Positions 14,486 through 57,913 of a DNA stretch of 64,000 nucleotides are shown in pieces. Position numbers and translations under genes: made by a program. The DNA is from Methanobacteriota archaeon (GTDB lineage: Archaea; Thermoplasmatota; Thermoplasmata; SG8-5; JACRNV01). Below the pieces are notes generated by a model that saw nothing but the letters and a program-made list of their open reading frames with translations, was not told the DNA's origin and ran no database searches. Location of the stretch: contig JACRNV010000005.1 of assembly GCA_016214785.1 (NCBI GenBank), positions 62,001 through 126,000 on the forward strand. The letters run 5' to 3'. How positions within the stretch are numbered: position 1 is the first letter of the stretch; each line of letters starts with the position of its first letter.

Positions 14486-14507
14486 TGAATCCCCTCAGCG
14501 GGCAGAG

Positions 14508-14529: not shown

Positions 14530-14587
14530 AGGGATTAAGAACCTTTCCAATGGGGGGGCGAAACTACAAATAGAGTTTCTGAGAACC

Positions 14588-14688
14588 GTTTCGCTAGGAG
14601 ATTTACAGGAAAATCTCCGGCGAAACTACTCTGGATATTCACAGAAAACCGTTTCTATAGGAGAATCACAAGAGATTCTCCGGCAAAA
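14588..14688 (+). repeat. Dispersed hairpin family A, copies 1 and 2
   Basis: GTTTCGCTAGGAGATTT-ACAGGA-AAATCTCCGGCGAAAC (14588-14626) and TAGGAGAATC-ACAAGA-GATTCTCCGG (about 14658-14683); related copies at 46477-46570. Confidence 0.75.
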
Positions 14689-14783
14689 GTGCCCGAATGA
14701 GGCGTCGAGCGTCCAGAAACCGCCGGAATCTGCTCTTGAAATGCTTGAACCGTCCACAAGATGGCGGCGGTTCCCCGACCCTT

Positions 14784-16067: not shown

Positions 16068-16108
16068 CGCGACCGCATCGCCCGGATGATAGATAAAGGT
16101 TCTCGGGC

Positions 16109-18817
16109 TCATCCCGGGTTCGCCAGGCGCCAGTCCGAGAGAGACGGGGGGAACTTCGCCCCCAGGGCCTCGATGTCCCGCCTGGCCTCCTCCATCGTCT
16201 CGTCCCCGTTGGGCAGGGAGAAGCGCGCCAGCGCCAGCGCAAGGTCGTGGTTCGACACAGCCCGCTCGTACTTGTCCCCCAGGCGCTCGAACAGGGCTAC
16301 CGAATCCTCCAGGTAGCGCATGGAAATATACCACTCCCCCTTCAGGCCGGAGAGCGCCCCCAGGGTCCTGCAGAGCCTGGCCCTCCCGCGCAGGTTGGAC
16401 TGGTCGGTCGCCGCCATCGCGTCCCTCAGCGTGCTCTCGGCTCCCGCGACGTTCCTTGCTGCGAGCTGTATCAGCCCCCACGCATGAAGCGCGGCGGCGC
16501 GCCCCTCGGAGCGCGGGGCCAGCGCGGCCCATTCTACGAACTCCCTGGCGGTCGCCGACGCATCCTCAATCTTCCCGAGGGCCAGATGTGCCCTCGATAT
16601 GTCGACGCGCGCCCCCGCCAGGGAGCCGCGGTCCTGCGCCCCCACTCTCGCCTCGCACGACCGCGCATACCTGCCCACTGCCTCCTCAGCCTTCCCGGCA
16701 GCCATTGCCTCGTGGCCCTCGATCGCCAGGGCCTCGGCCTCGACGTTCTTGTCGCCGGACATCCTCGCGACGGCCAGCGCCCTCTTCCTGTGCTTCCCCG
16801 ACTCTTCCCACGCCCCCGTCTCCCACAATGCCATTGCTAGATTGACAAGGGACATCCCGTACCTCGGGTCGCCGTGCCTCTCGAACAGCGCCGCGCTCTC
16901 CCTCCACAGCGCGACGGCCTCGGCGAGCCTGTTCCCCTTGTAGCGTATGGCGGCGATGTTGTTGAGGATGGTCCCCTCCATCCGCACGTTCTTCGCGGCG
17001 CGAATCCTGTCCAATGCGGCCTTGTAATGCTCTGCGGCCTCATCGAGGCGCCCCCGGAGCATGCACACGTTCCCGCGCGTCGCCTCGCAGAGTCCTATGA
17101 GATCGTCCCTCCTCGACCTCCTCGCCAGCGCGACCGCGCGCTCGCTATGCTCTTCCGCCTTCTCGATCTCCCCCTTCCTGAGGTGAAGGGTCGCCAGCTC
17201 GTCGCATATCCTCGCCTCTATGTGCGGGTTGCCCCTGGGCAGCGCGTCCATGCTTTCCCCGTATGCCCTGAGCGCCGCGTCCAGGTCCCTCTTCGCGAGA
17301 TGCACGGAGGCTATGCGCGCCATCGTCTCGGCCCGGGGCGCGCGGTCGCGCCCGAGAAGCGCCATGGCCTCTTCAAAGCACGCGATCGCCTCGCCCCACT
17401 TCCCTTTCATCTTACGGAGGTTCCCCTTCAGTATCAGAGCGTTGGCCCTGTCCCCCTTGTCGAGATGGCCCAGGTCGAGCTGGCCGATAATGGCCTCCAG
17501 CTTATCACCGAGCCCGGCCTTGAGCATCGGCTCCCCCGCATCGCGCAGGGCCTTCCCGCACTCCCGTAGCGCCCCGGCCTTCACGAGGTGGGAGCACGCC
17601 TCGGCCGCATGCCCGGCGTCGTCCCACGTGGCCACGAGCGCGCGGGCTATCCTCAAATGGGCGCGCCGCCTTTCCTCCGGGCTTCCGCTCTCTGGCAGGA
17701 CGAACTGTGGCGCCAGATGGACATGGCCCCCGGCGGACATGAGCGCCCCCTTCTCGGTAAGCCACGAGACGACCTGGTAGTCTATGCCGAGCTGGGCGAT
17801 CTCCCCGACGTGCACGGGCCTGCCAAAGGCCGCCAGGAGCCCGAGGAGCCGCCTCTCCCCCCTGGACAGGGCTGCGTCATCCGTAAGGGGGGCGTCCCCT
17901 CCGCGACGCGGCGACAGCAGCAGAGGCCTCCCGCCCGTTTGGGCGAACGCCTCCGAGGGGATGGGGTAGCCCTGCCGCCTGGCAAGGGCGAGTGTCTCCT
18001 CCTCGCTCAGCGGGCCCATGTCCAGCCTCCCCCACGTGCCTTCGGCCAGCGTCGGGCAGGGGCCATCTGTGGAGAGCACGAGCTTCGCCGCTCTCCCATC
18101 TGCCATGGCCCTGGCCAGCGACTCGACCTCCGCCTGGCTCTGCGCGTGCCCTGTGTCGTCGAGCGCGATGAGCATCGGAGGCCTGACTTCGCCCAGTATG
18201 CTCGCCACCCTTGCGTAAGGTATCTCCCGCTCCGAGCGCATTATGTAGCCGAGCAGGCCGCCGGCGCCTTCCGGCAGGGTCGCGGCCAGGGATTCCAGGC
18301 CCTCGCGCAGCGTGCCGTCCCTCTTGAGCGACCAGTAGAACGCCGTTCGCTCGGTCCCGAGCCCGGCCATGAAGCGGCGCAGAAGGGAGGTCTTTCCCAT
18401 GCCCCTCTCACCATATAGTATGAGCGTTGCCGGGCCATCCCGGGCGAATGCCGCCAACTCCCTTAGCTCCCTCGAGCGCCCGACGAAGTCCGCCGGCGGC
18501 GCGACAGACAATGTCTTCGGTGCGAGCGCGCGCTTCCCCAGGCCGTTGGCGACGACCCTACCTTCGTCCGTGAGGAAGTAGCATGTCCTCTTCCTGCTGC
18601 AGCCGTCGACGCGCGCCTTCCTCGCGAAGACGTACCCCCTCCTCATCAGGTCTATCACCGCCCGCGGCACGTGGTTGCGCGCTATCCCGACCGACTGCGC
18701 CACCCCGTCCTGCGTCACCAGCCTAGGTTGCAGGTAGCTGCCCGCCAGGCGCGAGAGCGGGGCTAGGTGAGAGACAATCTTCTCCTGCGTGGGGCTAAGG
18801 TCGTTCGCCCGCTGCAC
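16109..18817 (-). CDS. wHTH-STAND NTPase-TPR protein (paralogous architecture to 8372-10819)
   Basis: N-terminal wHTH, DFVGRSRELRELAAF, P-loop GERGMGKTSLLRRF, many TPR-like repeats; 902 aa. Confidence 0.78.
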   Translation of the reverse strand: MQRANDLSPTQEKIVSHLAPLSRLAGSYLQPRLVTQDGVAQSVGIARNHVPRAVIDLMRRGYVFARKARVDGCSRKRTCYFLTDEGRVVANGLGKRALAPKTLSVAPPADFVGRSRELRELAAFARDGPATLILYGERGMGKTSLLRRFMAGLGTERTAFYWSLKRDGTLREGLESLAATLPEGAGGLLGYIMRSEREIPYARVASILGEVRPPMLIALDDTGHAQSQAEVESLARAMADGRAAKLVLSTDGPCPTLAEGTWGRLDMGPLSEEETLALARRQGYPIPSEAFAQTGGRPLLLSPRRGGDAPLTDDAALSRGERRLLGLLAAFGRPVHVGEIAQLGIDYQVVSWLTEKGALMSAGGHVHLAPQFVLPESGSPEERRRAHLRIARALVATWDDAGHAAEACSHLVKAGALRECGKALRDAGEPMLKAGLGDKLEAIIGQLDLGHLDKGDRANALILKGNLRKMKGKWGEAIACFEEAMALLGRDRAPRAETMARIASVHLAKRDLDAALRAYGESMDALPRGNPHIEARICDELATLHLRKGEIEKAEEHSERAVALARRSRRDDLIGLCEATRGNVCMLRGRLDEAAEHYKAALDRIRAAKNVRMEGTILNNIAAIRYKGNRLAEAVALWRESAALFERHGDPRYGMSLVNLAMALWETGAWEESGKHRKRALAVARMSGDKNVEAEALAIEGHEAMAAGKAEEAVGRYARSCEARVGAQDRGSLAGARVDISRAHLALGKIEDASATAREFVEWAALAPRSEGRAAALHAWGLIQLAARNVAGAESTLRDAMAATDQSNLRGRARLCRTLGALSGLKGEWYISMRYLEDSVALFERLGDKYERAVSNHDLALALARFSLPNGDETMEEARRDIEALGAKFPPSLSDWRLANPG

Positions 18818-18829
18818 GCATGTGATTTG

Positions 18830-18872
18830 TTTTCTTAGTATAAAAACATTTCTATTTGTTGCACTAAGAAAA
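18830..18872. promoter_or_regulatory. Inverted repeat in divergent promoter region
   Basis: TTTTCTTAGT (18830-18839) and ACTAAGAAAA (18863-18872), perfect 10-bp arms; also tandem AAGTTGTGC at 18884-18892 and 18893-18901. Confidence 0.55.
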
Positions 18873-18995
18873 TTATATATTATAAGTTGTGCAAGTTGTG
18901 CGGCTGTTCGAGAGGTTTAAATACGCGCAATCTCATGCAATTGGACAAGGAGTCTCAATGTCGTACGTTGCGAAAGCGTCGAGGAGGCTGTCGGG

Positions 18996-21900
18996 ATGCG
19001 TGCGGTGTTAGGTAAGTGGGCGGCTGTTTCTGTGGGCCTGGTAGTGTTGCTGAGCGCGATGGTCGTGGGGAGCTGGCAGACGAACGGGACGGCCTCGCGC
19101 CCTGCAGTGCCTCTGAATTATACTGCACATGCACCGATAAGGATCAACTCAGACGCGGAGTTCGCGACGAAGGCGGCGAGCGAGGGGTGGAACGGGAGCG
19201 GGGCGCAGGGGGACCCGTATATCATCGAGAGCTACGACATCAACGGTACAAGTTACGGATATTGCATCTACATCGGGAACACAACAGATTATTTTGTAGT
19301 GAGCAATTCTTATTTGCATGAGGCGAGCGGTGTGAGCAGTTACCCTTATTATTGCGAGGCAGGATTAATCCTTTATAATGTACAAAATGGCACCATCGCC
19401 AATAACAACGCCTCCTCGAATAACGGTTATGGCATCTTCCTCAACTTCTACAGTAACTACAACACCATCGTCAACAACACCGCCTCCTCGAACAACGGTT
19501 ACGGCGGCATCTTCCTCAACTTCGTCAGCAACTACAACACCATCGCCAACAACACCGCTTCCTCGAACAACGGTTGGGGCATCTTCCTCGACTCCTCCAG
19601 CAGTAACGCCGTCGCCAATAACACAGCTTCCTCGAACAACTTGGGTGGCATCTTTATCTCCTACTCCAGCAGCAACGCCATCGCTAACAACACTATGGCG
19701 GATGATGGAATATTCATAAGGGGAGATTTGCTTGAGCATTGGAACACTCACACAATCGACACTTCGAACACGGTGAATGGCAAACCCGTCCAATATTGGG
19801 AAAATCAGACTAGTGGAAGCGTACCCACGGGAGCCGGGCAGGTAATACTCGCCAATTGTACGAACGTCGTAGTGGAGAACCACAACGTGAGCAAGGGAAC
19901 GGTTGGGATCGAGTTAGGTTTCTCCACCAGCAACATAATCACCAACAATACCGCCTTCTCGAACGACGAAGACGGCATATACGTCTGTAACTCTAGCAGC
20001 AATACCATCGTCAACAACACAGCCTCCTCGAACAACCAATATGGCATCTACTTGGATGGAACAAGTAGCAATACCATTTACCATAACAATATCATCGACA
20101 ACTTCATCCAAGCATTCGATAACGGAATGAACTCCTGGGACAACGGTTACCCATCCGGCGGTAACTTCTGGTCCAACTACACCGGCGTCGATGTCATGTC
20201 CGGCCCCAACCAGAACGTCCCCGGCGCTGACGGCATCGGGGACACGCCGTTCATCATCGACGCCGACTCGCGGGACAACTACCCGCTGATGGCGCCCTTC
20301 AACGGCTCGGTGCTGGCGCCCCCCGCCTGGAACTGGTCCGTGCCCGTCGATTACACCTCGAACGGCCCCGGCATCGGCGACCTGGACGGCGACGGCTTCG
20401 CTGAAGTCCTGTTCTGCTCCAACTGCGGCGTCCACTGCCTCGACCGCTACGGGAGCTGGCTGTGGAACTACAACGGGACTGCCGATTTCCGCGAGTCATT
20501 GCCCGTCGTAGCCAACCTGTACCAGGACGGGAGCGCGGAGGTGCTCGTCGGCTCCCTGAACGGCAGCCTCTATTGTTTCGACTCCCTGGGGAACCTTGCA
20601 TGGTCCTCGGATTATATCGGTGAATGGCTCACGTCCGCGCCTGGCGTGGCGGACATAGACGCCAACGGCGCCCTTGAAATAATCATGGCTTCGGACAACG
20701 GAACCTATTGCCTCGATGCCTTCGGCAACCTCACGTGGAGCGTCCCTTACAATGTCAGCTTCGCCACCTCCCCCTCGAACACCCCGGCCATCGACGATCT
20801 TGATGGCGACGGCCTGATGGAGATAGTCTATGCGACATCCAACAACTACATTAGCTGCATAAACTGCACTGGAAATGAAATGTGGGGGGTCTACTGCGGC
20901 GACCCTTACTCCGCCAATTCGTCCCCTGCCTCCCCTGCTGTCGCCGACATCAATGCCGACGGCCTGAAGGAGATCCTGGTCAATTGCGAGGACTTCCTGG
21001 TCTGCTATGATAAGAACGGGAGCGAGCTCTGGCGCTTCAACTGCTCGGTCTCCACCACCAGCAGCTCGGACACGGGCCCGACAGTCGCCGACCTCGACCT
21101 CGATGGCAATTATGAGATACTCTTCGGCATACCCGAGGGGCACTTCTACTGCATCAATCACACCGGCCAGCTTTTATGGGAGAAGAACTACACCGTATAT
21201 TCGTGGAGCCCGGGCGTTGGCGACTTCTCCGGGAGCCCCGACCTCGAGGTCCTCGTGTCCTTTGATGGCATCCGGTGCCTCGACAAGGACGGGAACGAGC
21301 TGTGGTACAACAACACCGACTGGGTACTTGGCGCGGTGTCCGGCGACATTGACCGGGATGGCGGCGTCGAGCTGCTGGTGAGGTTCCAGGGCAACATGAC
21401 GTGCATCAAGACGCCCGGCGCGAGCCCTGATGGCTACCTGGAATGGCCTTTCTTCAAGAACGGGCTCACCCACCCTGGCAGGTATTCCAACATCACGAGC
21501 CAGTCGCAGAACGACCTCTCCATAGTCCCCACTGACATCTCCTTCTCCATCCCCGCCCCGCATAAATGGGACGAGGTCACCATCACCGCCACGATACGGA
21601 GCAATGTCCCTGTCACCAACCTGCCGCCGAGCTCCGCGGTCGATGCGAGCGCGCCGTACTGGAAGGCGTCGAGCCCAATTACCATCAACGCAACGGCCAG
21701 CGATCCCGACGGGAACGTATCCTCCGTGGACCTCTGGTTCAGGTGGTCGAGCAACAACGCGAGCTGGGGCGCCTGGACGCTCTTCGGGAACGATACCGCG
21801 TTCCCATGGTCGTGGTCGTTCAACTTCACGAGCGGCCAGGGATTCTACCAGTTCTATTCGATTGCAGAGGACAATCTCGGCGCGACCGAGTCAGCCCCGG

Positions 21901-24900
21901 GCGCGCCCGACGCCCTCTGCGGCTACGATTCCACCCCCGGCTCGCAGACGCTTAGCGCCGGCCCCGGCTTCTGGAAGGGCGCCAACATCACTGTGAACGC
22001 CAGCGCCAGCGACGCCGTGAGCGGAGTCGCGAGCGTGGAGCTCTGGTACAGGTACTCCGCGAACAACGCGACATGGGGTTCCTGGGCGCTCGTCGGCGCC
22101 GACTCGGCGCCGCCGTACCAATGGAACCTGACGCTCGGGTTTGGCTATTACCAGTTCTACACTCGTGTCCGGGACTTGGCGGGGAACTACGAGCCAGTGC
22201 CAGGCGGCCCCGAGCTGTGGATAGGAATCGACACCGCATTCCCGGTCAGCGCGGTCGATGCCATCAGCCCGTACGTCCAGCCTAACGCCCCCATAATAGT
22301 GACTGCGACGGCGAGCGACACTGGCGCGTCCGGCCTGGCGGGCGTGGAGATGTGGTACCGGAACTCCACAGACAATTCGACCTGGGGCGCATGGTCCCTC
22401 TTCGGCACGGACTCGGCGGCACCGTATTCGTGGAGCTTCACCTTCCCGGCGGGAGCGGCCTATTACGAGTTCTACTCGAGAGCGAGGGACAATGCGGGGA
22501 ACTACGAGCCTGCGCCGGGAAGCGCGGACACGCGCTGCTACTACAACCCGCCCGCTCCGTCGATCACTGTGTCCAAGATTGTAGACAAGGCGACCGCCAA
22601 CCCCGGCGACAACCTGACGTACACAATATATTTCGACAACACGGGCGGAGCTATCGCCTCCGACGTCTTCGTCAACGACACGCTGCCTGCTGGTGTCACA
22701 TACATCAGCGACACCTCCGCCTCGCTGCCGGAGTTCTCCTCGCGCGTCATAAACGGCGCCGAATGCTATTTCTCATTCGTCAATGTCGCGCCGGGCGCTC
22801 ACAGCTTCACACTGATGGCGAGCATCAACTCGACTGTGGCGAACGGCACGAACTTGACAAATTACGTTTCCTGTGAATATTATCCTTCGGGCACGCTCAC
22901 GGAGGCATGGGCGAGCACGACCATCGGTGGAGTCTTGGTCCCGAGGCCGCCGATACGCATCAACAGCAACTCCGACTTCGACGCCGCGCACGGGGTGAGC
23001 TCGGGGAACGGCTCGCAGGCGAACCCGTACATCATCGAGAACTGGGACATCAACGGAGGCGGGTACGGGTACTGCGTCTACGTCGGGAATACTACGATGT
23101 ACTTCACCGTCAGGAACTGCTACCTCCACAACGCGAGCGGAGTCTCCCTGTGGCCGTACTATTACGGCCAGGGCATAATCCTCTACAACATCCAGAACGG
23201 CACGATAAACAACAACAATGCGTCCTCGAACGCAAATATCGGCATCCACCTCGATCACTCCGACGGCAATACCATCTCGAACAACAATGCAACCTTAAAT
23301 GGTGGATACGACTGGGGAGGCATCTTGCTGTACATGTCCAATGGCACTACCGTAACAGGCAACTCTGTCTGCTCGAATACAGGCCCCTGCAGCAGTGGTA
23401 TCAATGTCACATATTCCAATAACAACATAATCGCATACAACCGCGCTTCCTCGAATGCTGGCCTCGAAGGACGCGGTATCATACTCTTAGGTTCTGATAA
23501 TAATACAGTGGCAAATAATACTCTCTCCTTGAATGTCTATGGTTGTTGGTTAATTTACGGATGCGATAGCAACACCCTAAGGAACAATTCACTATCACAG
23601 AATACCTATGGATGTAGCATTATCGCGGGCACCGTGAATGTCCTTTATTATAATAATTTCATCAACAACACGTACCAACAAGCATTTGATACTGGGAATT
23701 CGAATTACTGGAACGCCTCCTACCCCACCGGCGGCAACTACTGGTCCAACTACACTGGTGTCGATGTCATGTCCGGACCCAACCAGGACATCCCCGGCGC
23801 AGACGGCATCGGCGACACGCCCTTCATCATAGACGCCGACTCTCAGGACATGTATCCGCTCATGTCGCCGATCAACTTGAGTGCGGGAAGCGATTACTCC
23901 ATCTGCTCTACCCCCACTAATCCAGTACCGTTCTCCTCTCCTGGTCCTGTCGTCCTCGCCGCCAACGGATCGAACTGCACCGTCTCCTTCTACCTGGATT
24001 CCGTGAGCGAGACAAACCTCATCTACCGGGAATACGGGGTCTTTGTCCCCGCCGGCGGATGGGCGAACGTCTCCGCCGGCTGGTTCGTGACATCCGACGG
24101 CAACCACACCATCATCGTCAATATCACCGACTCTGACCCCGCGGAGGCCGACCTCTCCAACAACCAGGCCTCCAAGGATGTCTATGTCACACCGCCGTGC
24201 GGCAAGCTGAAGGTCAAGGCCAGCTCCGACAAGCAGAAATATGTCTCTGGCGTAGACACACACGCTGATATCATAGTCAAGGTCACCTACCTCGGCCAGC
24301 TCGTCGGCGGCGCGAACGTCTCCGCTTGGACCCTCTCCCCCAACGGGACGAACTCCTCCGTCGCCATGGCCGAAGCCTCCCCCGGGATATGGGTGGGCGC
24401 ATATCCCTTCACGAACGAATCGGTCCCTGGGACGTACAGGATCAAGGCTGTCGCCACAAAAGCTGGCTTCATCGACGGCGCCAACGACGACTCGAAGGAC
24501 AAGTTCTTCCTGGACTCCCCCAATGCCGTGCAGTCCGTCACGGTGACGCCTCCCATCTCTCAATCTGCCGATACATTGCTCATCGAGGTTTCGGGCAACG
24601 GTTCCGTTAACAAGGCCGTGCTCCGCGGCGCGGTCATAAACTGCTCGTACAGCCTGCCGCTCTTCGACGACGGCACGCATGGCGACGCATTGCCGTCGGA
24701 CGGCATTTTCAGCAACCAGATCGATGCGTCCCTCCTCCGCTCCAGCGATTATGTCGTTGACGCCGTCACGGCCGACGGCGCCTTCCCGGCCAAGGGGTCA
24801 TTCGCCGTCGTCCCTCCCGACCTGCTCATGCGCGACGTCATCGGTTTCTCGAGCTCCGGCGGCTCCGCGCTCCTCTGCTCGGGCACGACCAACATAACCA

Positions 24901-26923: not shown

Positions 26924-27279
26924 GAAAGTCACCTGTGGAACCGCATGGATACATAGTATAAATAACTTTGTTGAAAAAAATGATATGAATAAATTAAATG
27001 AAGAAATAAATTTCAATAAATATATTGATGAAATAGATACAAATATTAAAAATAAAAGCAATAATGCAATTGATGTCATTTATGTCAATATTCATTATCA
27101 ATATATTTAATTCATTTTCATATAATTACGATAAATAAGATTATTTTATCATATTAATGTTAATATACGGCTCTGAAAAAAGATACATTTAAATATAACC
27201 TACAATGATATCGTAAGATGACCTTATGCTAACGGGGTAGATAGTATATCATCCCCTTTTGCATAAGATGGTGGTCGAA

Positions 27280-28002
27280 ATGATACGTGTCGTCGTCTAT
27301 GCCAGGGTTTCCACGAAGGAGCAGGAGAAGGAGGACACCGTCGAGACGCAGATCGACAAGCTGACCCCGCTCATCCTCCAGTCCGGCGACAGGGAGATAG
27401 TGCGCATCGTCAAGGACGAGGACGTCTCCGGCGACACTGAGCCCGAGCAGCGCAAGCACTTCCCCGTCGTGCTGGACATGGCGGAGAAGGGGGACTTCGA
27501 CGAGCTTTGGCTGGCTTCGAGGGACCGCCTGGCCAGGGACGTGGACATCGCTGGGTACATCCGTACGGTGCTAAGAAGGCACGGCGTGAAGATAGTCGCC
27601 CTGGACGACAGCGACGAGAAGACCTTCGACAGGTTCAAGGATGTCCTTGGGGAGATGGAGCTGGAGAAGTACAGGGCCAAGCGCCTCGACGGGATAAACC
27701 GCGCCATCAAGGAGCACAGGATACTCCAGCGCCCCCCGTTCGGCTACATGGTCCAGGAGAAGAAGATGGTCGTCGACGAGAGGCACAGGGGCATCATCGT
27801 CGCGCTCTACCGGGACTTCAAGCTGCCGGCGATGTCCCTGCGCAAGCTGTCCCAGAAGTACAACCTCCCGCCGTCGCTGATACAGAGGATAAGGTCGAAT
27901 ACGATATATATCACCGGAGAGGTCCGGTGGCAGGGGCGCGTCATCTACCACGTCGAGCCCATAGTCAAGGAGGAGGAAGTGGTAAAATCGCAGAAAACAT
28001 GA
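27280..28002 (+). CDS. Serine recombinase (resolvase/invertase family)
   Basis: MIRVVVYARVSTKEQEKEDTVETQIDKL, LWLASRDRLARD, Recombinase-like segment HRILQRPPFGYMV. Confidence 0.9.
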   Translation: MIRVVVYARVSTKEQEKEDTVETQIDKLTPLILQSGDREIVRIVKDEDVSGDTEPEQRKHFPVVLDMAEKGDFDELWLASRDRLARDVDIAGYIRTVLRRHGVKIVALDDSDEKTFDRFKDVLGEMELEKYRAKRLDGINRAIKEHRILQRPPFGYMVQEKKMVVDERHRGIIVALYRDFKLPAMSLRKLSQKYNLPPSLIQRIRSNTIYITGEVRWQGRVIYHVEPIVKEEEVVKSQKT

Positions 28003-36831: not shown

Positions 36832-37128
36832 TTATTCATCGCCCGACCGGATCAGCTCGCGCTTGCCGTGGATGATTGTCAGGATTGTGATTCTGTCCCT
36901 CTCCGATCGGTAGATGACGCGGTACGTCTCGTACAGTATCTCCCTGATGTCTTTTTTATTGTATTCCGGCACGATGCGCCCCATCTTCGGGAAGTCCCCG
37001 ACCTTCTCGGCGCAATCTATCAAATCGTTGACGAAGACGTTGGCATAATGCTCGGAATCGTTGGCTATGTAATCGAAGATGTTCTTCAGGTCGTCCAGTG
37101 CGGGCTCGGCCCAGACCAGCTTTTTCAT
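36832..37128 (-). CDS. ParE/RelE-family toxin
   Basis: MKKLVWAEPALDDLKNIFDYIANDSEHYANVFVNDLIDCAEKVGDFPKMGRIVPEY...YRVIYRSERDRITILTIIHGKREL. Confidence 0.88.
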   Translation of the reverse strand: MKKLVWAEPALDDLKNIFDYIANDSEHYANVFVNDLIDCAEKVGDFPKMGRIVPEYNKKDIREILYETYRVIYRSERDRITILTIIHGKRELIRSGDE

Positions 37129-37301
37129 TTGGCGAACCTCTTCCTGACGTCTGCGTGGGATACGACCTTGCCTTTGGCCGCGGCCTTCAGCCCCATCTCT
37201 ATCTTCTTTCTGACATACATCTTGTAGATGATGTCCTCCCACGAGCAGTCGTCCGGAAGAGACCCGATGAGCTTGATTGCCTCGGATTTGGTCGCGTTCA
37301 T
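37125..37301 (-). CDS. Cognate antitoxin
   Basis: 58 aa MNATKSEAIKLIGSLPDDCSWEDIIYKMYVRKKIEMGLKAAAKGKVVSHADVRKRFAK; ATGA overlap with the toxin start; below ORF-track cutoff. Confidence 0.82.
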   Translation of the reverse strand: MNATKSEAIKLIGSLPDDCSWEDIIYKMYVRKKIEMGLKAAAKGKVVSHADVRKRFAK

Positions 37302-37359: not shown

Positions 37360-40300
37360 CTATTTCTTTTTCTTGCCCTTCTTCGGCCTCTCTTCGTCCG
37401 GCTCTCCCTTCACTCCCAGCGCCCTCCTCGTCCCGACCTGTATCTCGCACTCCGGCTCGCCGTCGGCCATGGTCTTGGCCATGCGCACGGCCAGATCCTC
37501 TCCCGCGTAGTGCGCGAACCTCCAGGCCATCGCCCGGCACAGGATGCAGAGCATGAAGTTCCTATGTTTCTGGTTGTCCCACGGGCAGGTCGTCACCCTC
37601 ACAAGCGTGCTGGACGCGCCGTGGCTCTCGTGGCGCGCCGTCCCGCCGAGGTCGAAGAGCACGCCTATGTACGCCGTCGCGGCCTCCCGAGCCCCGGTGA
37701 GGTGGATGGCCTTGGAATAGCGCTCGGCTATGACCTCGTCCAGGCGCTCGGACAGGCGCACTATCATCTCCTCGCGCTTCCCTGGCTCCAGCGTCTCGAG
37801 GAAGAGGGGGATGATGTCTGTGATGACGGACTTGAGCTCGTACTGGGCCTCGAGCATGCGCCTGCGCAACTGTTCTTCTTGCCTGCGCTTCTGGACTGTG
37901 ATGTCCCGCACGACGGTCACGACGCGCACGGCCTTCCCGCCCTCGATGACCGGGACCTTGCGCGTCTCGGTGATTACCTCGGCGTCGCCGATGGTCGTGC
38001 TCTCCTCGGTGACGAGCGCGCGCCCTGTGTCGAAGACCTGCTCGTACTCGTACCTGACCTTCTCGGGGAGGTACGGGAAGACCTCGAAGACGTCCTTGCC
38101 GACGATGTCAGTCTCGAGGCCGAGCCTCTTGTTCCACTGCTTCATGGCCTTGTTGGCGAGCATCACGCGCAGGCCGGAATCGACCATGTGGATGGCGTCG
38201 TTCATCGCGTCTATCGTCAGGTGGTACTGCTCCTCCGAGAGGCGGAGCATCGTCTCGGCGCGCCTTGTCTCCGTGACGTCGTGGACGAAGCCGACGAAGT
38301 ACCTTTCCTCGCCGATGGTGTAGGTCGAGACCGATATCCTCGCTGCGAAGGTGCTGCTGTCCTTCCGCAGGCCGCGGAAGTCGTAGCGCTGGGGGGCACG
38401 CCTTTCCCTACCGCTCGAACGCAGGACGGTGTAGCTGGCGACGCGGTCGCGGTCCTCGGGCGCGATAGTGACCTCGGTCGGCCGGCCGATGAGCTCCTCG
38501 GGGCTGTCGTAGCCGAATATCTTCGCGAACGACGGGTTGACAAAGACCAGCTTGTCGTCCTTCTCGACGCCGATGCCGTCGATAGAAGCCTGGAAGAGGG
38601 CGTTGAGCTGCTCCTCGGCCCTGGCCATGCCCATGATGTCCTCGATCAGCGCCAGGGAGCCAATCTGCCCGCCCCCCGCGTCCCTGAGCGGGACTATCAT
38701 GAGCGTCACGACGATGCTCTTGCCCCAGTTGGTCTTGTACCCGATGCGGTCGAGGCGTATCTCCCCCCCTTCCTTCAGGCACTTCTCGAATAGGGCAGAT
38801 ACGCCCTGGTCCACCATGGCCTTCAATTTCAGGACGTTGAACTTCATCGTGCTGTCCGCGCCGGGGCTCCCCAGGATGGACAGCATGGCGTTGTTCACGC
38901 TGGTGATCCCACCCTCCATGTCGGTGGTCATGATTCCTATCGGGGCGTTGGAGACGACGTTCTCGTTGAGCCGCTGCATCTCCGCGAGCCTCGCCGCGGC
39001 CTCCTTCCTCTCGGTGATGTCCTGCGTGAGCGTGACTATCTGCTCGAGCTTGCCGCCCGTCCCCAGTATGCCGTAGAAGAAGAGCGACACCGTTTTCTCT
39101 CTTCCTGCGCCGATGTCCCTGATCTGCACTTCGGGTATGAAGTACTCGCCCCCCACCGTCCATACTTTTTTCACCTCCTTGAACCACGGCTCCAGATAGG
39201 GGTATATCTCCTCGAAGGGCTTGCCGGCGCTCTGCCTTATGCGCTCCCTGATGGACTTCTCGGACAGCGCCCAGATGTCCTTCCAGACCGTGTTATACAT
39301 CAGGAGCTCGCCGTCCTTGTCGCGCAAGGTTATCCCGACCGGCGAGCTGTCTATGACCGCCCTGCTCAGCGTCTCGCTCTTGCGTATGAGCTCGTCGGCC
39401 CTCTCCCTCTCCGAGAGGTCCCTCACGAAGATGAGGTCTGCCGGCTTGCCCTGATAATCGACCGCCCCCGCATTGACCTCGACCGGCACCTCCGTGCCGT
39501 CGGCCCTGAGTATCCTCGTTTCGTATATCGTGGGCAAGTCCTTGTCTTTGCCCTCGATGCGCAACCGGTAACGTTCGAAGAGGTCGGCCTTGACCTCCTC
39601 CGGCACGAAGTCGGTGAAGGGCCTTCCGATGATATCCATGTGCCCCTGGCCGATCAGGCGCTCCACTTGCCGGTTCGCGAAGGCCACTCGTCCGTCTTGC
39701 AATATGGCAATGGCGTCGTTGGCGCGCTCGACAAGGTTCCTGTACTTCTCCTCGCTCTGGCTCAGCGCCTCCCACGATGTCTTGCGCTCCGTGATGTCCC
39801 TGACGACTGCGACCGACCCCCTGTACACCCCGTCCCTCATTATGGGGGACAGCTTTGCAGAGAACCAGCGCATGTCGTTCCCGATCTTCATCCAGTACTC
39901 GATCTCAGCGACCTTGCCTCCCCTGTTCGCACTGACAGCGTCGTTCATCTTCTCCATCATGTAAGGGGGCAGGACCTCGTCGAACCGCTTCCCCATGAAG
40001 GCGCTCGGGGGGACGTATAGTCTGGAATCCTCCAGCGAGTGGTAGTAATTGAAGCGGCCGTTTTCGTCGAGCATGAAGATGAGGTCGTTCATCGAGGATA
40101 TCATGCCGCGCAGCCTCTCCTCGCTCTCGAGCAGGGCTTGATCGGCCCGCTTCTGCTCGGTGATGTCGCGCATGCCGAAGATGGCGCCAGCCACCTCCCC
40201 GCTCGGAGAAATCGCCAGGGTCCCCAGGGCTTCTATCCAGACATACTCGCCCTTCGCGTTCATCATGCGGAACTCGGCCCGGTCGACGCCTCCGCTCCTG

Positions 40301-40935
40301 GCCACGACTTCGACGAGCTTGTTCATCTTTTCCAGGTCGTCCGCGTGCATGTATTCCCTGAACGGCTTCCTTGCCATCTCCTGAGGCGTGTATCCCAGAA
40401 CCCGCTCCACCGAAGGGCTCACGAAGAGGATGTCCCCCTGGGCGTCGACCTTGCATACGACGTCGAGCATGTTGTCGGCAATGCTTCTGAGCAGGCTCTC
40501 GGTCTTCTTGCGTTCCGAGACGTCCCTGGAGACGCTGAGCAGGTAGAGTGGTTCGTCTTTCTCATCGCATACCAATGAGCCGCTGAATTCTATAGGCACA
40601 GTCGAACCGTCCTTCCTCAGAAGGTTGAACTCGATGCCTCTGATAATCTTGGCCTCAAAAATCCCTTGAAGCGCGTCCAACATGCGGGGGTGATCCCCGG
40701 GCGCGATCAGCTCGGTGGCGTCCATGCCCACGAGCTCGTCGGGCGTGCCGTAGCCCAGGTGCTTCGCGCCCGTCCTGTTCGCCATAATGATTTTCATGTC
40801 CAGACCGATGAGCGTAATCGCATCGGGGGAGGTTTCGATGATTGTCTCCAGCAGCCTGAGGCGCTGCGCGGTCCGGCCAGGGGCTTCGCTCTCCTTCCTC
40901 GCATCCCCCTCCCCAGCGCCGTCCTTGCTCGCCAT
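37360..40935 (-). CDS. Multi-PAS sensor (about eight PAS domains) lacking a visible histidine kinase, C-terminal putative output domain
   Basis: Repeated PAS/PAC signatures; C-terminus lacks H-box/N-box and has TTCPWDNQKHRNFMLCILCRAMAWRFA. Confidence 0.85.
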   Translation of the reverse strand: MASKDGAGEGDARKESEAPGRTAQRLRLLETIIETSPDAITLIGLDMKIIMANRTGAKHLGYGTPDELVGMDATELIAPGDHPRMLDALQGIFEAKIIRGIEFNLLRKDGSTVPIEFSGSLVCDEKDEPLYLLSVSRDVSERKKTESLLRSIADNMLDVVCKVDAQGDILFVSPSVERVLGYTPQEMARKPFREYMHADDLEKMNKLVEVVARSGGVDRAEFRMMNAKGEYVWIEALGTLAISPSGEVAGAIFGMRDITEQKRADQALLESEERLRGMISSMNDLIFMLDENGRFNYYHSLEDSRLYVPPSAFMGKRFDEVLPPYMMEKMNDAVSANRGGKVAEIEYWMKIGNDMRWFSAKLSPIMRDGVYRGSVAVVRDITERKTSWEALSQSEEKYRNLVERANDAIAILQDGRVAFANRQVERLIGQGHMDIIGRPFTDFVPEEVKADLFERYRLRIEGKDKDLPTIYETRILRADGTEVPVEVNAGAVDYQGKPADLIFVRDLSERERADELIRKSETLSRAVIDSSPVGITLRDKDGELLMYNTVWKDIWALSEKSIRERIRQSAGKPFEEIYPYLEPWFKEVKKVWTVGGEYFIPEVQIRDIGAGREKTVSLFFYGILGTGGKLEQIVTLTQDITERKEAAARLAEMQRLNENVVSNAPIGIMTTDMEGGITSVNNAMLSILGSPGADSTMKFNVLKLKAMVDQGVSALFEKCLKEGGEIRLDRIGYKTNWGKSIVVTLMIVPLRDAGGGQIGSLALIEDIMGMARAEEQLNALFQASIDGIGVEKDDKLVFVNPSFAKIFGYDSPEELIGRPTEVTIAPEDRDRVASYTVLRSSGRERRAPQRYDFRGLRKDSSTFAARISVSTYTIGEERYFVGFVHDVTETRRAETMLRLSEEQYHLTIDAMNDAIHMVDSGLRVMLANKAMKQWNKRLGLETDIVGKDVFEVFPYLPEKVRYEYEQVFDTGRALVTEESTTIGDAEVITETRKVPVIEGGKAVRVVTVVRDITVQKRRQEEQLRRRMLEAQYELKSVITDIIPLFLETLEPGKREEMIVRLSERLDEVIAERYSKAIHLTGAREAATAYIGVLFDLGGTARHESHGASSTLVRVTTCPWDNQKHRNFMLCILCRAMAWRFAHYAGEDLAVRMAKTMADGEPECEIQVGTRRALGVKGEPDEERPKKGKKKK

Positions 40936-40948
40936 ACGACCCCCAACC

Positions 40949-42421
40949 TCACTGGTGCTTGAAGAACTGCTCCACCCTCTCGGCTATGGCCTTGCGGGGG
41001 CTGCCGGTCATGACCCCCTCGACGCCCTCGAACTTCTTGCCTATGCTGATGCCCTTGTCGGTGACGGAGTACTCGCGGATCTCGCGGACGTGGCGGGAGC
41101 CGCGCATCTTCAGTATGTTCAGCGCCTTCTTCATCTCCGAGCCCATCTCCACGAAGCGCATCATGATTATCGTGTCGACGATGAACGAGACGCCCTTGTC
41201 GGTGATGTGGCTCGCGCCTATGAGCTCCGGCGTCTCCGAAGTGAGTATAGACGTGATGCCGCGCTTCTTGAACTCCAGGACCATGTTCGAGAGGAAGACC
41301 TTCATCTCGCTCTCGGGGAGCGCGACCTCGTAGTCGGACGCGGAGTCGACCATGACCCTAGACACGCCTTCGAGCATGCCGCGGACCTGCGCGAGGTGCT
41401 TGTTGACCTCGATTTCCGTCGATGGGGTGTATAGTATCTGGACGAGCCCCTTCTTCTCGAGCGCGGCAAGGTCGATGCCCACGCTGGTGGCGTTCCGCCT
41501 CATCTGGGAGGGCGGCTCCTCGAAGCTTATGACGAGCCCCTTCTTGCCGCGGGCCGCGCCCTCGTTTATGAACTGGAGCCCGAAGATGGACTTGCCCGTC
41601 CCCGCCGGCCCCGTGACGAGCATCACGTCCCCGCTCATCAGGCCGCCGCCGAGCATGTCGTCCAGCCCCTCGATGCCCGCCTTCACGCGCTCGGACTTGG
41701 ACTGGATGTCGGACTGCGCGGGGAACCTCGGGTAGACCGTGTACCCTTCGTCCGAAATCTCGAACGAGTGCCTGCCGTGCAGGTACGCCGAGCCGCGCAT
41801 CTTGTAGACCTCCAGGGTCCTGCTGCCCGCCTTGTAGGTTATGATGATTATCGAGTCGGTGACGTACTCCTCGACCGTATAGCGCGAGAGGCGCCCCTCC
41901 TCGTTTATCTCGGTGGTTATCACCGAAGTGAGACCGAGGTCCTTCATCAGCGTCGTGAGCCTGAAGAGCGCGCCCCTGTACTCGTTCTCGCACCCGTACC
42001 TGAGGCCCAGGGCGGCGATGCCATCGATGACTATGCGCCTTATCTTCTTCTCCTTGGCCCAGGCCTGCACGACCTCGGCTAAGACCTCGACGTCCAGGAC
42101 GCTCGACGCGCCGCTCCTCTCGTCGTTCAGGGACAAGAGCTTCCTCATCTCGGACAGGTCGAGGAACCACACGCTGTCCGCGAGCCTCTCGATCTCCTTC
42201 CCCATCGCCGAGGGCATGTTCGTCAGCATGCTCGCCCTGCTCTCCTCCAGCGTTATGAGCAGCCCCGGCTCGCCCGAGGCGGCGCCCTTGAGCAGGAAGT
42301 TGACGGCGAGGATGGTCTTCCCCGTGCCGCTCCCCCCGCTGATGAGGTTCGACGACGACTGCACGAACCCACCATGCAGCACCGCGTCCAGGCCCTCCAC
42401 GCCCGTCTTGAGTCTCTTCAT
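40949..42421 (-). CDS. KaiC-like dual RecA-domain ATPase
   Basis: Two P-loops GGSGTGKTILAVNF and GPAGTGKSIFGLQF; start at MKRLKTGVEGLD. Confidence 0.9.
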   Translation of the reverse strand: MKRLKTGVEGLDAVLHGGFVQSSSNLISGGSGTGKTILAVNFLLKGAASGEPGLLITLEESRASMLTNMPSAMGKEIERLADSVWFLDLSEMRKLLSLNDERSGASSVLDVEVLAEVVQAWAKEKKIRRIVIDGIAALGLRYGCENEYRGALFRLTTLMKDLGLTSVITTEINEEGRLSRYTVEEYVTDSIIIITYKAGSRTLEVYKMRGSAYLHGRHSFEISDEGYTVYPRFPAQSDIQSKSERVKAGIEGLDDMLGGGLMSGDVMLVTGPAGTGKSIFGLQFINEGAARGKKGLVISFEEPPSQMRRNATSVGIDLAALEKKGLVQILYTPSTEIEVNKHLAQVRGMLEGVSRVMVDSASDYEVALPESEMKVFLSNMVLEFKKRGITSILTSETPELIGASHITDKGVSFIVDTIIMMRFVEMGSEMKKALNILKMRGSRHVREIREYSVTDKGISIGKKFEGVEGVMTGSPRKAIAERVEQFFKHQ

Positions 42422-42849
42422 TTGCCTTCCCCCTTCCCCTTCGTCATGCCGTCTGTGATTACCTTCGCCATCGTCGGCCCTAGCGTCGACGACAGCAGGG
42501 CCGTCACGGCCTGTATGTAGGCGCGCGGGTCCTTCTCCGGGTCGATGCCCTTCGTGGCCTTTGCCAGGCGGCGCTCGAACTCCCCGGCGAACTTGTCCCC
42601 CAGCGAGCGCTTCAGGACGTCCTCGACGCGCTCGGGGAGAGCCATGAGCTCGCCCTGCCTCAGGTAGTCCTGCTGGCGCACGTACTCGAGGTGCCTGCGC
42701 ACGGCGTCGCGGACGAAGTCGTTGGGCGTGCTCCAGGCGTACTCGGGATGGCCATCGACGGCCTCCTCGACCTGGTGCATCATGGGCTTCGAGAGCCTGA
42801 CGCCGACCCACTTCCTGTTGTCCTCCGACCCCTCGTCATCCTCTGGCAT
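42418..42849 (-). CDS. Ribbon-helix-helix-type regulator-like protein
   Basis: KWVGVRLSKPMMHQVEEAV...STPNDFVRDAVRRHLEYV; overlaps the kaiC-like start by ATGA. Confidence 0.7.
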   Translation of the reverse strand: MPEDDEGSEDNRKWVGVRLSKPMMHQVEEAVDGHPEYAWSTPNDFVRDAVRRHLEYVRQQDYLRQGELMALPERVEDVLKRSLGDKFAGEFERRLAKATKGIDPEKDPRAYIQAVTALLSSTLGPTMAKVITDGMTKGKGEGK

Positions 42850-54296: not shown

Positions 54297-54485
54297 GGAC
54301 CGGGCGAGATGCGAGGTCAGGAATCAGGCTGGAAGTAATCACTGACCGAGCATGAGCCCGTTCCCATCGACTTCCGGCGTGGTCCACCGTAAAGACGCAA
54401 AATGAAAGAAGAGGTGGACCGGGCGAGATCGAGGGCGAGGCAATCTTGTATGAAGCATTTTCTCGCCCGAGATGAGCCCGGTCCA
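54297..54485 (-). repeat. Two tRNA-Ala 3-prime-end-derived hairpin elements downstream of tRNA-Ala
   Basis: GGACCGGGCGAGAT repeated at 54297, 54416 and within the tRNA (54515); IR TGGACCGGGC (54415-54424)/GCCCGGTCCA (54476-54485) with inner GGGCGAG/CTCGCCC; second unit has inner GGTCAG/CTGACC. Confidence 0.7.
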
Positions 54486-54513
54486 TCGTATAGACGCAAA
54501 ATAAAATCAGAGA

Positions 54514-54587
54514 TGGACCGGGCGAGATTTGAACTCGCGGCCTCTCGCATGCCAAGCGAGCGATCTTCCGAGCTGATCTACCGGCCC
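54514..54587 (-). tRNA. tRNA-Ala (anticodon GGC)
   Basis: 74-nt cloverleaf GGGCCGG-TA-GATC..GATC-G-CTCGC-TTGGCAT-GCGAG-AGGCC-GCGAG-TTCAAAT-CTCGC-CCGGTCC-A; G3:U70 pair characteristic of alanine. Confidence 0.95.
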
Positions 54588-54631
54588 ATGGCGCGAGCGA
54601 GCTAAAACGCGGGGGGATAATAACCTTTGGC

Positions 54632-55651
54632 TCACTTGCCCTCGTATATCGTCAGCTCGCGCTCGACCATCTTCAGGTCCTTCTCCTCGAGCGTGAGGGG
54701 GCTCAGCGGCACAATCAGGACAGCGCCCTTGACGGATATGAGCTCGTTGACGAGCTGTATGAACTTCAGCACTGACTGGTAGGTGTTGTGCGAAATGAGG
54801 TACTCGAGCCCGGCAAGTATGACGATGCCCCTCTCGCTGCGCCTCATGAAGTTCTCTATGTTGTAGTAGAGGCCGGAGAGGTTCTGCGGCGCGACGGTCG
54901 CCTCCCCCTCGGTCGTCGAGAGCCAGATGACCGGCGTCTTCTCGAACCCATAGCGCTTCCTGACCTTCGCCGGGAAGTCCCTCGTGACGCAGAGGCCCTG
55001 GAAGCCGTGCTTGACGTGCTCTGCGAAGATCTCGTAGCTGCGCTCCCCGGTCTCGTCCTTGATCAGGTAGCCAGTGCCTGAATCGAGGGCCTGCAGTCCC
55101 GTCTTCTTCACGATGATATCGTCCTTGGCCTCTTCAGACCACTTGTATATCTCGGGGGCAAGGACGGCCTCTCCAACGCCGACTTCGTACTCGGGCCTTA
55201 TTTCCGCCGATTGCGCGAGCCTGTGCACGCACCTCTTGTCCCCCTTCGCCATGCAGCTCTCCTCGGTGGCCGTGAAGCGCCTGTCTAGCAGCGCGGAGAG
55301 CACCCCGGAGAGGTATCCGCTAGTGAAATGGCACGCCGGGACCGTGGTCTTGGCGATGGAGTTCGCCTCGACCGAGTCCTCGAAGCTGATTGTGACCTCG
55401 GATGGCAGGATGTCCATCTTGTCGACCCTGCCCAGGCCCGTCTCGATGAGCACGCCAGGCAAAAGGTCCCTGAGTTCCTCGGTGTCCTTGCACCTTATGT
55501 CGATGCTCTGCACCAGCCCCTCGCCGCACCTGAAGCCGTAGCGCTCTATCGTCTCGTGGGACGCCTTCTCCCCGACGAGTATCTGCAGCTCGTCCCCCAG
55601 GTTCTTGAGCGCGTTGCCGGACATGACGAAGAAGCTGATGTTCTCGGGCAT
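54632..55651 (-). CDS. V4R domain + DUF835 protein
   Basis: CHFTSGYLSGVLSALLDRRFTATEESCMAKGDKRCVH (V4R); DUF835-like C-terminus (TPVIWLSTTEG...ENFMRRSERGIVILAGLEYLISHN). Confidence 0.85.
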   Translation of the reverse strand: MPENISFFVMSGNALKNLGDELQILVGEKASHETIERYGFRCGEGLVQSIDIRCKDTEELRDLLPGVLIETGLGRVDKMDILPSEVTISFEDSVEANSIAKTTVPACHFTSGYLSGVLSALLDRRFTATEESCMAKGDKRCVHRLAQSAEIRPEYEVGVGEAVLAPEIYKWSEEAKDDIIVKKTGLQALDSGTGYLIKDETGERSYEIFAEHVKHGFQGLCVTRDFPAKVRKRYGFEKTPVIWLSTTEGEATVAPQNLSGLYYNIENFMRRSERGIVILAGLEYLISHNTYQSVLKFIQLVNELISVKGAVLIVPLSPLTLEEKDLKMVERELTIYEGK

Positions 55652-56190
55652 TACTGGGACCTCCGCATGCCCTCGAGGATGGCGTTGCTCATGCTCAGGA
55701 ACGCCTCCTCGACGTTCGCGCCGGTCTTCGCGCTCGTGAGCAAGTACCTTGCGCAATTGCCATCGGAGAGCTTCTGCAGGTCGGCATCGCTGACCGCCCT
55801 CCTGTCGGCGAGGTCGGATTTGTTCCCGAGGAATATGATCGGCGTATCTGGGCTGACGCTCCTGAAGACGCGCAACCACTCGTTCGCGCCCTCGAACGTC
55901 TCGCGGCGCGTGACGTCGCAGACGACGAACGCGCCCGCCGCGCCCTGGTAGTAGCTGGAGTGGAGGTTGTCGTGGACCCTCTGGCCGAGGATGTCCCACA
56001 TCATCAGGATGAGCTCGTAGTCCTGTCCTCCCACGTCGAGCCTGAGCTCTTTCTTGGTGACTTTGGTCCCGAACGTCATGATGTACTTGTCGTCGAAGGA
56101 ATCGAAGACGAACTTGCGGATGAGCGATGTCTTGCCCACGGCCCCGTCGCCTAGGAGGCAGACCTTCTTCATTATCTTCTTTGGCTCCAT
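55651..56190 (-). CDS. Rab/Ras-like small GTPase
   Basis: G1 GDGAVGKTSLIRK, G3 WDILGQR, G4 GNKSD, G5 SAKTG. Confidence 0.92.
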   Translation of the reverse strand: MEPKKIMKKVCLLGDGAVGKTSLIRKFVFDSFDDKYIMTFGTKVTKKELRLDVGGQDYELILMMWDILGQRVHDNLHSSYYQGAAGAFVVCDVTRRETFEGANEWLRVFRSVSPDTPIIFLGNKSDLADRRAVSDADLQKLSDGNCARYLLTSAKTGANVEEAFLSMSNAILEGMRRSQ

Positions 56191-56194
56191 GGCA

Positions 56195-57013
56195 TCACCC
56201 CTCGACCTTTTCCACGACGAGCCTGCGCTTCACCATCCGCGCCCTTGCCTCATGCTCCGTCTTCACTCCCTTCTCGGCCTCGGCCAGGTACTCGATGGCC
56301 TTCAGCACGCCGGCTTTCGTCGGCGCGTTGATGTCCACGCCCGCGCGGCCGAACTGCTGGCGCACGATGGCCATGGCCGTCTCCTCGTCGTTGTAACCCT
56401 TGCAGAAGTCGGAGATGATGAAATCCGTTGCGTCGATGAGCGTTTTGATCTCAGCGGCTTGCGTGCTCCCCTGCCCGGCCTCGGGCCTGGCTTCGGCCCT
56501 GCAGACGCTCTCCCCGAGGGCGCCGAAGGCCGCCTCGACGTTCTCGCCCGTCTTGGCGCTGCAGCGGAAGTACGGCGCGCCGAACTTGGTGGCGAAGGCC
56601 TTCAGCTCCCCCTCGGACACCTGGAACTGGTCCTTCAGGTCGCACTTGTTGCCCACGAGTACCAGGGGGACATTGCCCGCGACCTGCGAGAGGTTCGGGC
56701 ACCAGTACTCCTCGAGGCTCTTCAGCGTCTCCTTGCGCGTGAGGTCGCAGACGACTAGCGCGCCCTCCGAGCCCTTGTACGAGCTGGACTGGATGCTCGA
56801 GTAGCCCTTCTGGCCGAGGACGTCCCATATCATGAGCGTGAGCTCCGCGTTCTGCGGCTTCATCTCGAGGACCTTCTTCGTCACCTTGGTGCCGATGGTC
56901 GTGATGTACTTGTCGTCGAACCTGTCCATGACGTACTTGCGGATGAGCGAGGTCTTGCCCACAGCCCCGTCCCCTAAGAGGAGGACCTTGCGCTTTATCT
57001 TCCTGACTTCCAT
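56195..57013 (-). CDS. Rab/Ras-like small GTPase with about 100-aa C-terminal extension
   Basis: G1 GDGAVGKTSLIRK, G3 WDVLGQK, G4 GNKCD, G5 SAKTG. Confidence 0.92.
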   Translation of the reverse strand: MEVRKIKRKVLLLGDGAVGKTSLIRKYVMDRFDDKYITTIGTKVTKKVLEMKPQNAELTLMIWDVLGQKGYSSIQSSSYKGSEGALVVCDLTRKETLKSLEEYWCPNLSQVAGNVPLVLVGNKCDLKDQFQVSEGELKAFATKFGAPYFRCSAKTGENVEAAFGALGESVCRAEARPEAGQGSTQAAEIKTLIDATDFIISDFCKGYNDEETAMAIVRQQFGRAGVDINAPTKAGVLKAIEYLAEAEKGVKTEHEARARMVKRRLVVEKVEG

Positions 57014-57103
57014 GAACCTTACCCTGATTGTGCAAGGTATTGCGCATGGGTTTAATATCGTTTCTGTGAAAGGGTTAGATATCCAGTCGGCATATCGCCC
57101 TAC

Positions 57104-57913
57104 ATGGGCGGTTCCGTCAAGGAGGATCTCGCATCGCTGGGCATCAGGCCGTCGAAGCGCTTCGGCCAGCACTTCCTCGTCGACGAGAGCGTGGCGCACC
57201 GGCAGGTCTATTACGCGAAGCTGTCCAAGTCCGATACCGTGCTGGAGATAGGCCCGGGCCTCGGAACCCTCACGAGGCTCATCGCGCCCAAGGCCGGCAG
57301 GCTCGTCGCCATCGAAAGCGACAGGAGGCTCTGCGGCCACCTGTCGGGCAAGGTCGATGCTGAGATAATCTGCGGCGACGCGCTCGATGTCCCGTTCCCG
57401 GAGTTCAACAAGGTCGTGGCCAACCTGCCGTACTCCATCTCGTCGCCGATAACCTTCAAGCTCCTGGAGCACGACTTCGAGGTCGGGATACTGATGTACC
57501 AGCTCGAGTTCGCGGAGAGGATGGTCGCGCGGCCGGGGACGAAGGACTACTCGCGCCTTTCGGTGATGGCTCAGCACCGCGCCGCCATCGAGTTCATGGA
57601 GAAGGTCCCAAGGACCGCGTTCCACCCGCAGCCCGCCGTCGATTCGGCGATAATCAAGGTCGCGCCGCGCAAGCCCGGTTACGAGGTCGCGGACGAGCGA
57701 GCGTTCGAAGCCATTGTGCGCGTGCTCTTCTCGCACAGGCGCAAGAAGATAAGGACGACGATGTGCCTGTGCTCGCGCGAGCTCAGGGTTTCAAAGGAGA
57801 CGGCGGAGAGAGTGGCCGAGGAGTCTGGCTACGCCGACGCTCGGGTGGAAACGCTCGAGCCGTCCGAGCTGGCCGCGCTGTCAAACCTCCTGCACGAGGC
57901 GCGGTCGGGCTAG
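57104..57913 (+). CDS. ksgA: 16S rRNA dimethyladenosine transferase
   Basis: KRFGQHFLVDESV...VLEIGPGLGTLTRLI...VVANLPYSISSPI. Confidence 0.95.
   Translation: MGGSVKEDLASLGIRPSKRFGQHFLVDESVAHRQVYYAKLSKSDTVLEIGPGLGTLTRLIAPKAGRLVAIESDRRLCGHLSGKVDAEIICGDALDVPFPEFNKVVANLPYSISSPITFKLLEHDFEVGILMYQLEFAERMVARPGTKDYSRLSVMAQHRAAIEFMEKVPRTAFHPQPAVDSAIIKVAPRKPGYEVADERAFEAIVRVLFSHRRKKIRTTMCLCSRELRVSKETAERVAEESGYADARVETLEPSELAALSNLLHEARSG

Follow-up and report, generated by a model that had tools for sequence, protein, structure and literature searches.

The DNA analyzed here is a 64-kb window (this term refers to the whole stretch) from a 2.18-Mb draft genome of the order SG8-5 (Ca. Proteinoplasmatales), Thermoplasmatota. 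It contains three adjoining minus-strand genes in the order GTPase1 → GTPase2 → V4R-DUF835 (Table 1). Open frames were confirmed for all three at the positions proposed in an earlier sequence-only reading, as was the 1-nt overlap between the GTPase2 and V4R-DUF835 genes; GTPase1 and GTPase2 are separated by 4 nt (TGCC). Since a divergent KsgA-type gene is located upstream and a tRNA-Ala gene downstream, the operon comprises these three genes only. On the downstream flank, the 3′ end of the tRNA-Ala gene, ATCTCGCCCGGTCCA, recurs ~100 nt further downstream (window positions 54410 to 54590), resembling a short att-site remnant.

Table 1. Features of the operon and its flanks (window coordinates).
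Feature	Position	Strand	Remarks
GTPase1	56195-57013	-	272 aa; G domain of the Ras type at residues ~1-172, helical domain at the C terminus
GTPase1 C-terminal tail domain, residues 188-270	56204..56452	-	four-helix; on Ras-like GTPases
GTPase2	55651-56190	-	179 aa; single-domain Ras-like GTPase, constant partner of the V4R gene
G3/switch II of GTPase2, WDILGQRVHDNLHSSYYQGA	55939..55998	-	LHxxYY signature of V4R-partnered GTPases
V4R-DUF835 protein	54632-55651	-	339 aa
V4R domain, residues 1-150	55202..55651	-	predicted Bet3/PoxR fold; both GxxxG motifs
Putative zinc-site codons Cys107, Glu130, Cys133, Cys141	55229..55333	-	
DUF835 domain, residues 189-334	54650..55087	-	FlaH/KaiC-like fold without P-loop
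KsgA-type gene	57104-57913		divergent, upstream of operon; named by eye
tRNA-Ala	54512-54588		downstream of operon
Candidate archaeal TATA box, GATATTAAAC	57050..57059	-	before GTPase1, with CAGAAAC just before it; by eye

Domains of the operon-encoded proteins

Pfam searches assigned residues 87 to 145 of the V4R-DUF835 protein to V4R (PF02830; 49.4 bits versus a cutoff of 31, E = 5e-13) and residues 203 to 333 to DUF835 (115.6 bits, E = 1.9e-33), in agreement with the initial annotation. The AlphaFold model (mean pLDDT 85.6, pTM 0.49) consists of two confident domains joined by a disordered linker (residues 151 to 184). In Foldseek comparisons, the modeled V4R domain matched PoxR (E = 2.3e-7), MopR (4.4e-7), mouse Bet3 (4.7e-7; TM-score by target 0.69), and Thor-TRAPPC3 (3.3e-5; TM-score by target 0.70). 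The V4R domain is predicted to have the Bet3 fold, and the kinship with Bet3 cited in the sequence-only reading is borne out at this level. Both GxxxG pairs, named as motifs of the Bet3/V4R family by Podar et al., are kept (G39/G43 and G112/G116). The best-supported relative of the second domain is FlaH (Foldseek E = 1.1e-5), and the protein contains no Walker A motif (GxxxxGK[ST]). The DUF835 domain of the operon has a KaiC/FlaH-like fold without a P-loop, that is, it is an inactive KaiC-like domain, and DUF835 has been classed as inactive KaiC (PMC5847659).

At the level of sequence profiles, the only credible matches of the V4R domain were MJ1460, PoxR, and MopR; Bet3 was not among them, and the Pfam TRAPP model (PF04051) was absent from the hits up to E = 1. 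The domain contains a putative zinc site of the DmpR/MopR type (three cysteines and one glutamate), in which Cys107, Glu130, Cys133, and Cys141 are invariant in the V4R-domain alignment. The spacing of the three cysteines equals that of the DmpR zinc cysteines 151, 177, and 185, with Glu130 two residues off the register of DmpR's published Glu172. Judged by its sequence and these cysteines, the domain fits ligand sensors (DmpR, MopR, and PoxR) better than Bet3 or TRAPPC3. The position of Trp134, which anchors phenol in MopR, is occupied by V86; because the anchoring tryptophan is replaced by valine, any V4R ligand should be a different one.

GTPase1 and GTPase2 are classed as Ras superfamily small GTPases by their Pfam Ras scores (147 bits, E = 3.9e-43 and 130 bits, E = 1.1e-37, respectively; cutoff 21.6 bits) and by the GDGAVGKT P-loop, NKxD, and SAK motifs present in both. 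Their closest solved relatives by sequence are Thor-Rab and then eukaryotic Rabs, and GTPase1 is closest to Rab1 by fold. However, one clade (100/99) holds Rab21, Rab1A, Ran, Ras, Rho, and Thor-Rab apart from the Thermoplasmatota sequences, in a tree whose HRAS, RAB1A, RHOA, RAN, ARF1, and T. thermophilus MglA references were entered by hand and whose Thor-Rab and Rab21 references were taken from sequence matches to solved structures. A grouping with Arf or MglA, which the sequence-only reading had named as contrary to its proposal, was not seen: both are far off in the same tree, with T. thermophilus MglA being the most distant entry. By the usual definitions of the Rab family motifs RabF1 to RabF5, RabF1 (IGVDF) is not kept and reads IGTKV or FGTKV, DTAGQ reads D[IV]LGQ, and RabF3 is lost; the near matches are limited to F4 (YYQGA, in GTPase2) and an F5-like motif (VCDVT/VCDLT). 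Neither protein has a cysteine for prenylation among its 20 C-terminal residues. Because the Rab/Ras/Rho/Ran clade excludes these GTPases, which also keep the RabF motifs incompletely and lack C-terminal cysteines, we rejected membership in the Rab family and, on sequence criteria, regard them as Rab-like, not Rab. The initial description as Rab-like thus stands as to nearest relatives and does not extend to the family itself.

Identity with MglA was likewise rejected, since the GTPases are far from MglA in the tree and the operon is without a roadblock (MglB) gene. Roadblock genes of the source genome are found on contigs 26, 34, and 48 only. On the first of these (C26, positions 4306 to 5465; L061), an open frame fusing a KaiC-like domain to a GTPase is followed by a gene for a roadblock protein, giving an MglA/MglB-like pair.

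The C-terminal tail of GTPase1, pointed out earlier as long and unexplained, is real. AlphaFold models its ~85 residues with high confidence as four helices, and four GTPases of the source genome carry it. Searches of Pfam and the PDB gave no credible match to the tail, which is a conserved domain representing a new family attached to Ras-like GTPases.

Conservation of the GTPase-V4R pair

The V4R-domain alignment was searched against 400 genomes of the class with a threshold of E ≤ 1e-12, yielding matches in 86 of them, and 80 stretches from this survey were annotated with profiles for the GTPase, V4R, DUF835, and the tail. A Ras-like GTPase gene was located directly upstream, on the same strand, at 67 of the 71 V4R loci scoring 90 bits or more, the gap between the GTPase and V4R domains being 3 to 94 nt (median, 16 nt); one of the four other loci is cut by a contig end. 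As the 2.18-Mb source genome contains just 13 Ras-family matches (eleven of them strong), this synteny is far above chance. A phylum-wide search revealed nine further loci outside the class, in five families. The GTPase gene is directly upstream of V4R at eight of them and 233 nt downstream at the ninth (family f58). With automated start-codon choice, 44 of 68 pairs show an overlap between the two genes, the most frequent being −4 (ATGA). The linkage spans ~20 families of Thermoplasmatota, so the pairing that had been noticed in this non-Asgard lineage is not restricted to the source genome.

Part of the synteny observed within a family reflects inheritance. Between family blocks, the flanks vary while the GTPase-V4R pair persists: they include a Zn-ribbon gene (seven families), other genes (f2, f3, and f10), and the KsgA-type gene with tRNA-Ala (the window), and no third gene is kept in all contexts. 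The conserved unit is GTPase2 plus V4R. The pair is present twice in tandem (GTPase, V4R-DUF835, GTPase, V4R) in two f39 genomes and at L185; the loci with this duplication are L212, L213, and L185. V4R-only paralogues adjoin GTPases too (L058, L158, L159, L160, L162-L165, L219, and L220). The cysteines are lost in the divergent V4R genes L025/L166 and L059, and orphan V4R-DUF835 genes without a GTPase occur in the source genome (C35; L060) and in genome G013 (L120). No natural GTPase-V4R fusion was seen among the surveyed loci.

Two local arrangements were recorded during the survey. The Zn-ribbon gene (weak DUF5817/DUF1922 similarity) lies on the same strand ~950 nt downstream of V4R at L096-L155, is limited to families f5, f20, f21, f29, f30, f32, and f33, and is followed by a divergent gene for a membrane protein. 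At L165 (G013:C53), four consecutive Ras-like GTPase genes precede the V4R gene.

The sequence-only reading had also stressed the tandem GTPases. A tail-bearing GTPase1 does precede the GTPase2-V4R pair in the window, at L147, and at those loci of the window's order that are complete, but tandem GTPases belong to this order and a few others, and the conserved unit has a single GTPase. Three other tandem GTPase pairs are present in the source genome (C54, C19, and C5). Contig C54 repeats the module (GTPase with tail, GTPase, and V4R without DUF835), and C5 carries a GTPase and a tail-bearing GTPase. On C64, a GTPase gene is followed by one for a DUF835 protein with a V4R-like N-terminal half that is without the cysteines and is not matched by the Pfam V4R model; C39 contains two single GTPases, one of them adjoining a wHTH protein. 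The C19 pair (positions 13500 to 22500; L056) is part of another GTPase-KaiC association, in which genes for KaiC (238 aa), a GTPase, a 79-aa coiled coil, a second GTPase, and an 816-aa HHH/KaiC protein follow one another on one strand.

Ras-like GTPases bind their regulators and effectors at switch II. An [LI]HxxYY signature was found in this region in 65 of the 66 scored GTPases partnered with V4R-DUF835; the sole miss is the window itself, where the pattern matched an incorrect segment, although LHSSYY can be seen by eye. The signature was also present in 5 of 11 partners of V4R-only proteins, and in 1 of 21 scored GTPases that are not directly upstream of V4R, namely, the reversed-order partner at L218. 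As judged from these sequences, the motif is specific to partnered GTPases, and shared descent may account for part of the pattern. Inter-protein co-variation was calculated as MI-APC from 63 pairs, a weak depth (Neff 28). The highest-scoring pairs fell in gap-rich columns, and the maximum was equal to that of within-family shuffles, so the analysis was given no weight, although the mean of the top 20 was higher than in all 30 shuffles.

Possible functions of the pair

There is, in our estimate, about an even chance that GTPase2 and V4R(-DUF835) form a dedicated one-operon signaling pair, a GTPase switch that responds to a hydrophobic ligand. A V4R homodimer would bind a hydrophobic small molecule in its Bet3/PoxR-type cavity and would touch switch II of GTPase2, and the ligand state and the nucleotide state would control each other. 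DUF835 may act as a scaffold or docking part, and in the window's order GTPase1, which carries the helical tail, would supply a second switch in addition. The switch-II signature would also be expected if GTP-bound GTPase2 recruited V4R-DUF835 as an effector, since effectors bind there too, and a signal passed on through DUF835 would fit its output-like use in the REC-DUF835 response regulators of archaea (PMC5847659). Nevertheless, V4R proteins without DUF835 are likewise paired with GTPases and V4R domains elsewhere serve as input domains, which leaves the effector role somewhat unlikely; with modest confidence, we favor V4R as a ligand-gated regulator that holds or releases the nucleotide.

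The sequence-only reading proposed a TRAPP-like regulatory module. The part of this proposal that stands is the Bet3 fold and the linkage of V4R to a GTPase. If the V4R dimer itself catalyzed GDP release from GTPase2, the pair would be a simple non-Asgard relative of TRAPP-Rab, and the fold shared with Bet3 and Thor-TRAPPC3, the retention of both GxxxG motifs, Rabs as the nearest relatives of the GTPase, and the near-obligate pairing are all in line with this. However, the active site of TRAPP is made of the longins Bet5 and Trs23 along with Bet3 and Trs31 (PMC8204860), which weakens the analogy, as the operon contains no longin or roadblock gene. In addition, the V4R sequence and its cysteine spacing are closer to sensors than to Bet3, the Pfam TRAPP model finds no match, and Asgard TRAPPC3 has itself been proposed to bind a ligand, with no exchange assay reported in the accessible part of that work (PMC10933270). 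We therefore consider exchange activity of the V4R dimer unlikely. A more specific version, in which the Bet3-fold dimer is a direct ligand-gated exchange factor and a longin-free forerunner or parallel of TRAPP-Rab outside Asgard archaea, is less probable still; if true, it would place such a forerunner or parallel in Thermoplasmatota.

The tandem GTPases of the window, of the complete loci of its order, and of L147, together with the C54, C19, and C5 pairs, would be accounted for if GTPase1 and GTPase2 worked as a Rag-like heterodimer on a V4R-DUF835 platform. We find this quite doubtful, since a single GTPase accompanies V4R in most genomes and the window GTPases score far lower with Pfam Gtr1_RagA than with Ras. 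Operon neighbors need not bind each other, and the genes might be adjacent for reasons of expression, with proteins acting separately; the persistence of the pair amid changing neighbors and its duplication as a unit make mere co-transcription very improbable.

Relation to known systems

The pair can be compared with several characterized systems. Like the TRAPP core with Rab1/Ypt1, it places a Bet3 fold with GxxxG motifs beside a Rab-like GTPase; unlike TRAPP, the operon has neither longins nor a multisubunit set, and its V4R is of the zinc-sensor type and fused to DUF835. With DmpR, MopR, and PoxR (XylR_N-V4R), the V4R-DUF835 protein shares the fold, three cysteines at zinc-ligand spacing, and an N-terminal V4R domain followed by a P-loop-class fold. 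It differs from them in lacking the sigma-54 activator part, the DNA-binding domain, and the phenol-anchoring tryptophan, and in its linkage to a GTPase gene. For both partners, solved archaeal relatives exist in Asgard Thor-Rab and Thor-TRAPPC3, but the GTPase genes of Asgard MK-D1 were reported not to share operons, as a rule, with genes for RB, longin, or TRAPPC3 (PMC10933270), whereas the GTPase-V4R operon is the rule in Thermoplasmatota.

MglA/MglB and conservon modules also combine a small GTPase with an adjoining cognate regulator; here, the partner is V4R instead of roadblock and the GTPase is far from MglA. The ArvABC vesiculation operon of Euryarchaeota is another archaeal small-GTPase operon kept in many genomes, with DUF2073 and DUF2072 partners (PMC10927574). 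Identity with ArvABC was rejected, the gene downstream of GTPase2 being V4R-DUF835. Rab-like sequences without a C-terminal cysteine, as found here, were reported from a Thermoplasmatales archaeon and Aciduliprofundum in a survey that leaves V4R and TRAPP unmentioned and puts weight on RabF motifs, a criterion that does not hold for the present GTPases (PMC4915359).

V4R has been proposed as the prokaryotic ancestor of Bet3, and the homology of the two is known (PMC2253512), as are archaeal Rab-like GTPases and Asgard TRAPPC3/Rab. What appears to be new is the near-obligate V4R-GTPase operon. In the freely accessible literature searched, we found no description of such an operon, no report linking V4R to GTPases in prokaryotes, and no paper that treats V4R together with either GTPase operons or DUF835 in this lineage. 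The kind of arrangement, a small GTPase and its cognate partner in one operon, is familiar, now with V4R as the partner: a Bet3-like protein and a Rab-like GTPase form a near-obligate gene pair in many families of a non-Asgard phylum. The gene pair suggests that relatives of two eukaryotic membrane-traffic parts make up a GTPase switch under ligand control that has not been described before. With just two proteins, which can probably be produced in E. coli, this small system allows one to ask whether V4R/Bet3 proteins handled GTPases before TRAPP and what effect the V4R ligand has on the GTPase.

Elsewhere in the window, a ribbon-helix-helix-like gene, a double-domain KaiC gene (490 aa; NCBIfam PRK09302, E = 7e-116), and a gene for a large PAS-type sensor (1191 aa, by eye) lie in a row on the minus strand at positions 37360 to 42849. 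Small overlapping genes at 36832 to 37301 resemble a ParE/RelE-type toxin-antitoxin pair, and an open frame at 27268 to 28002 resembles, by eye, a serine recombinase/resolvase.
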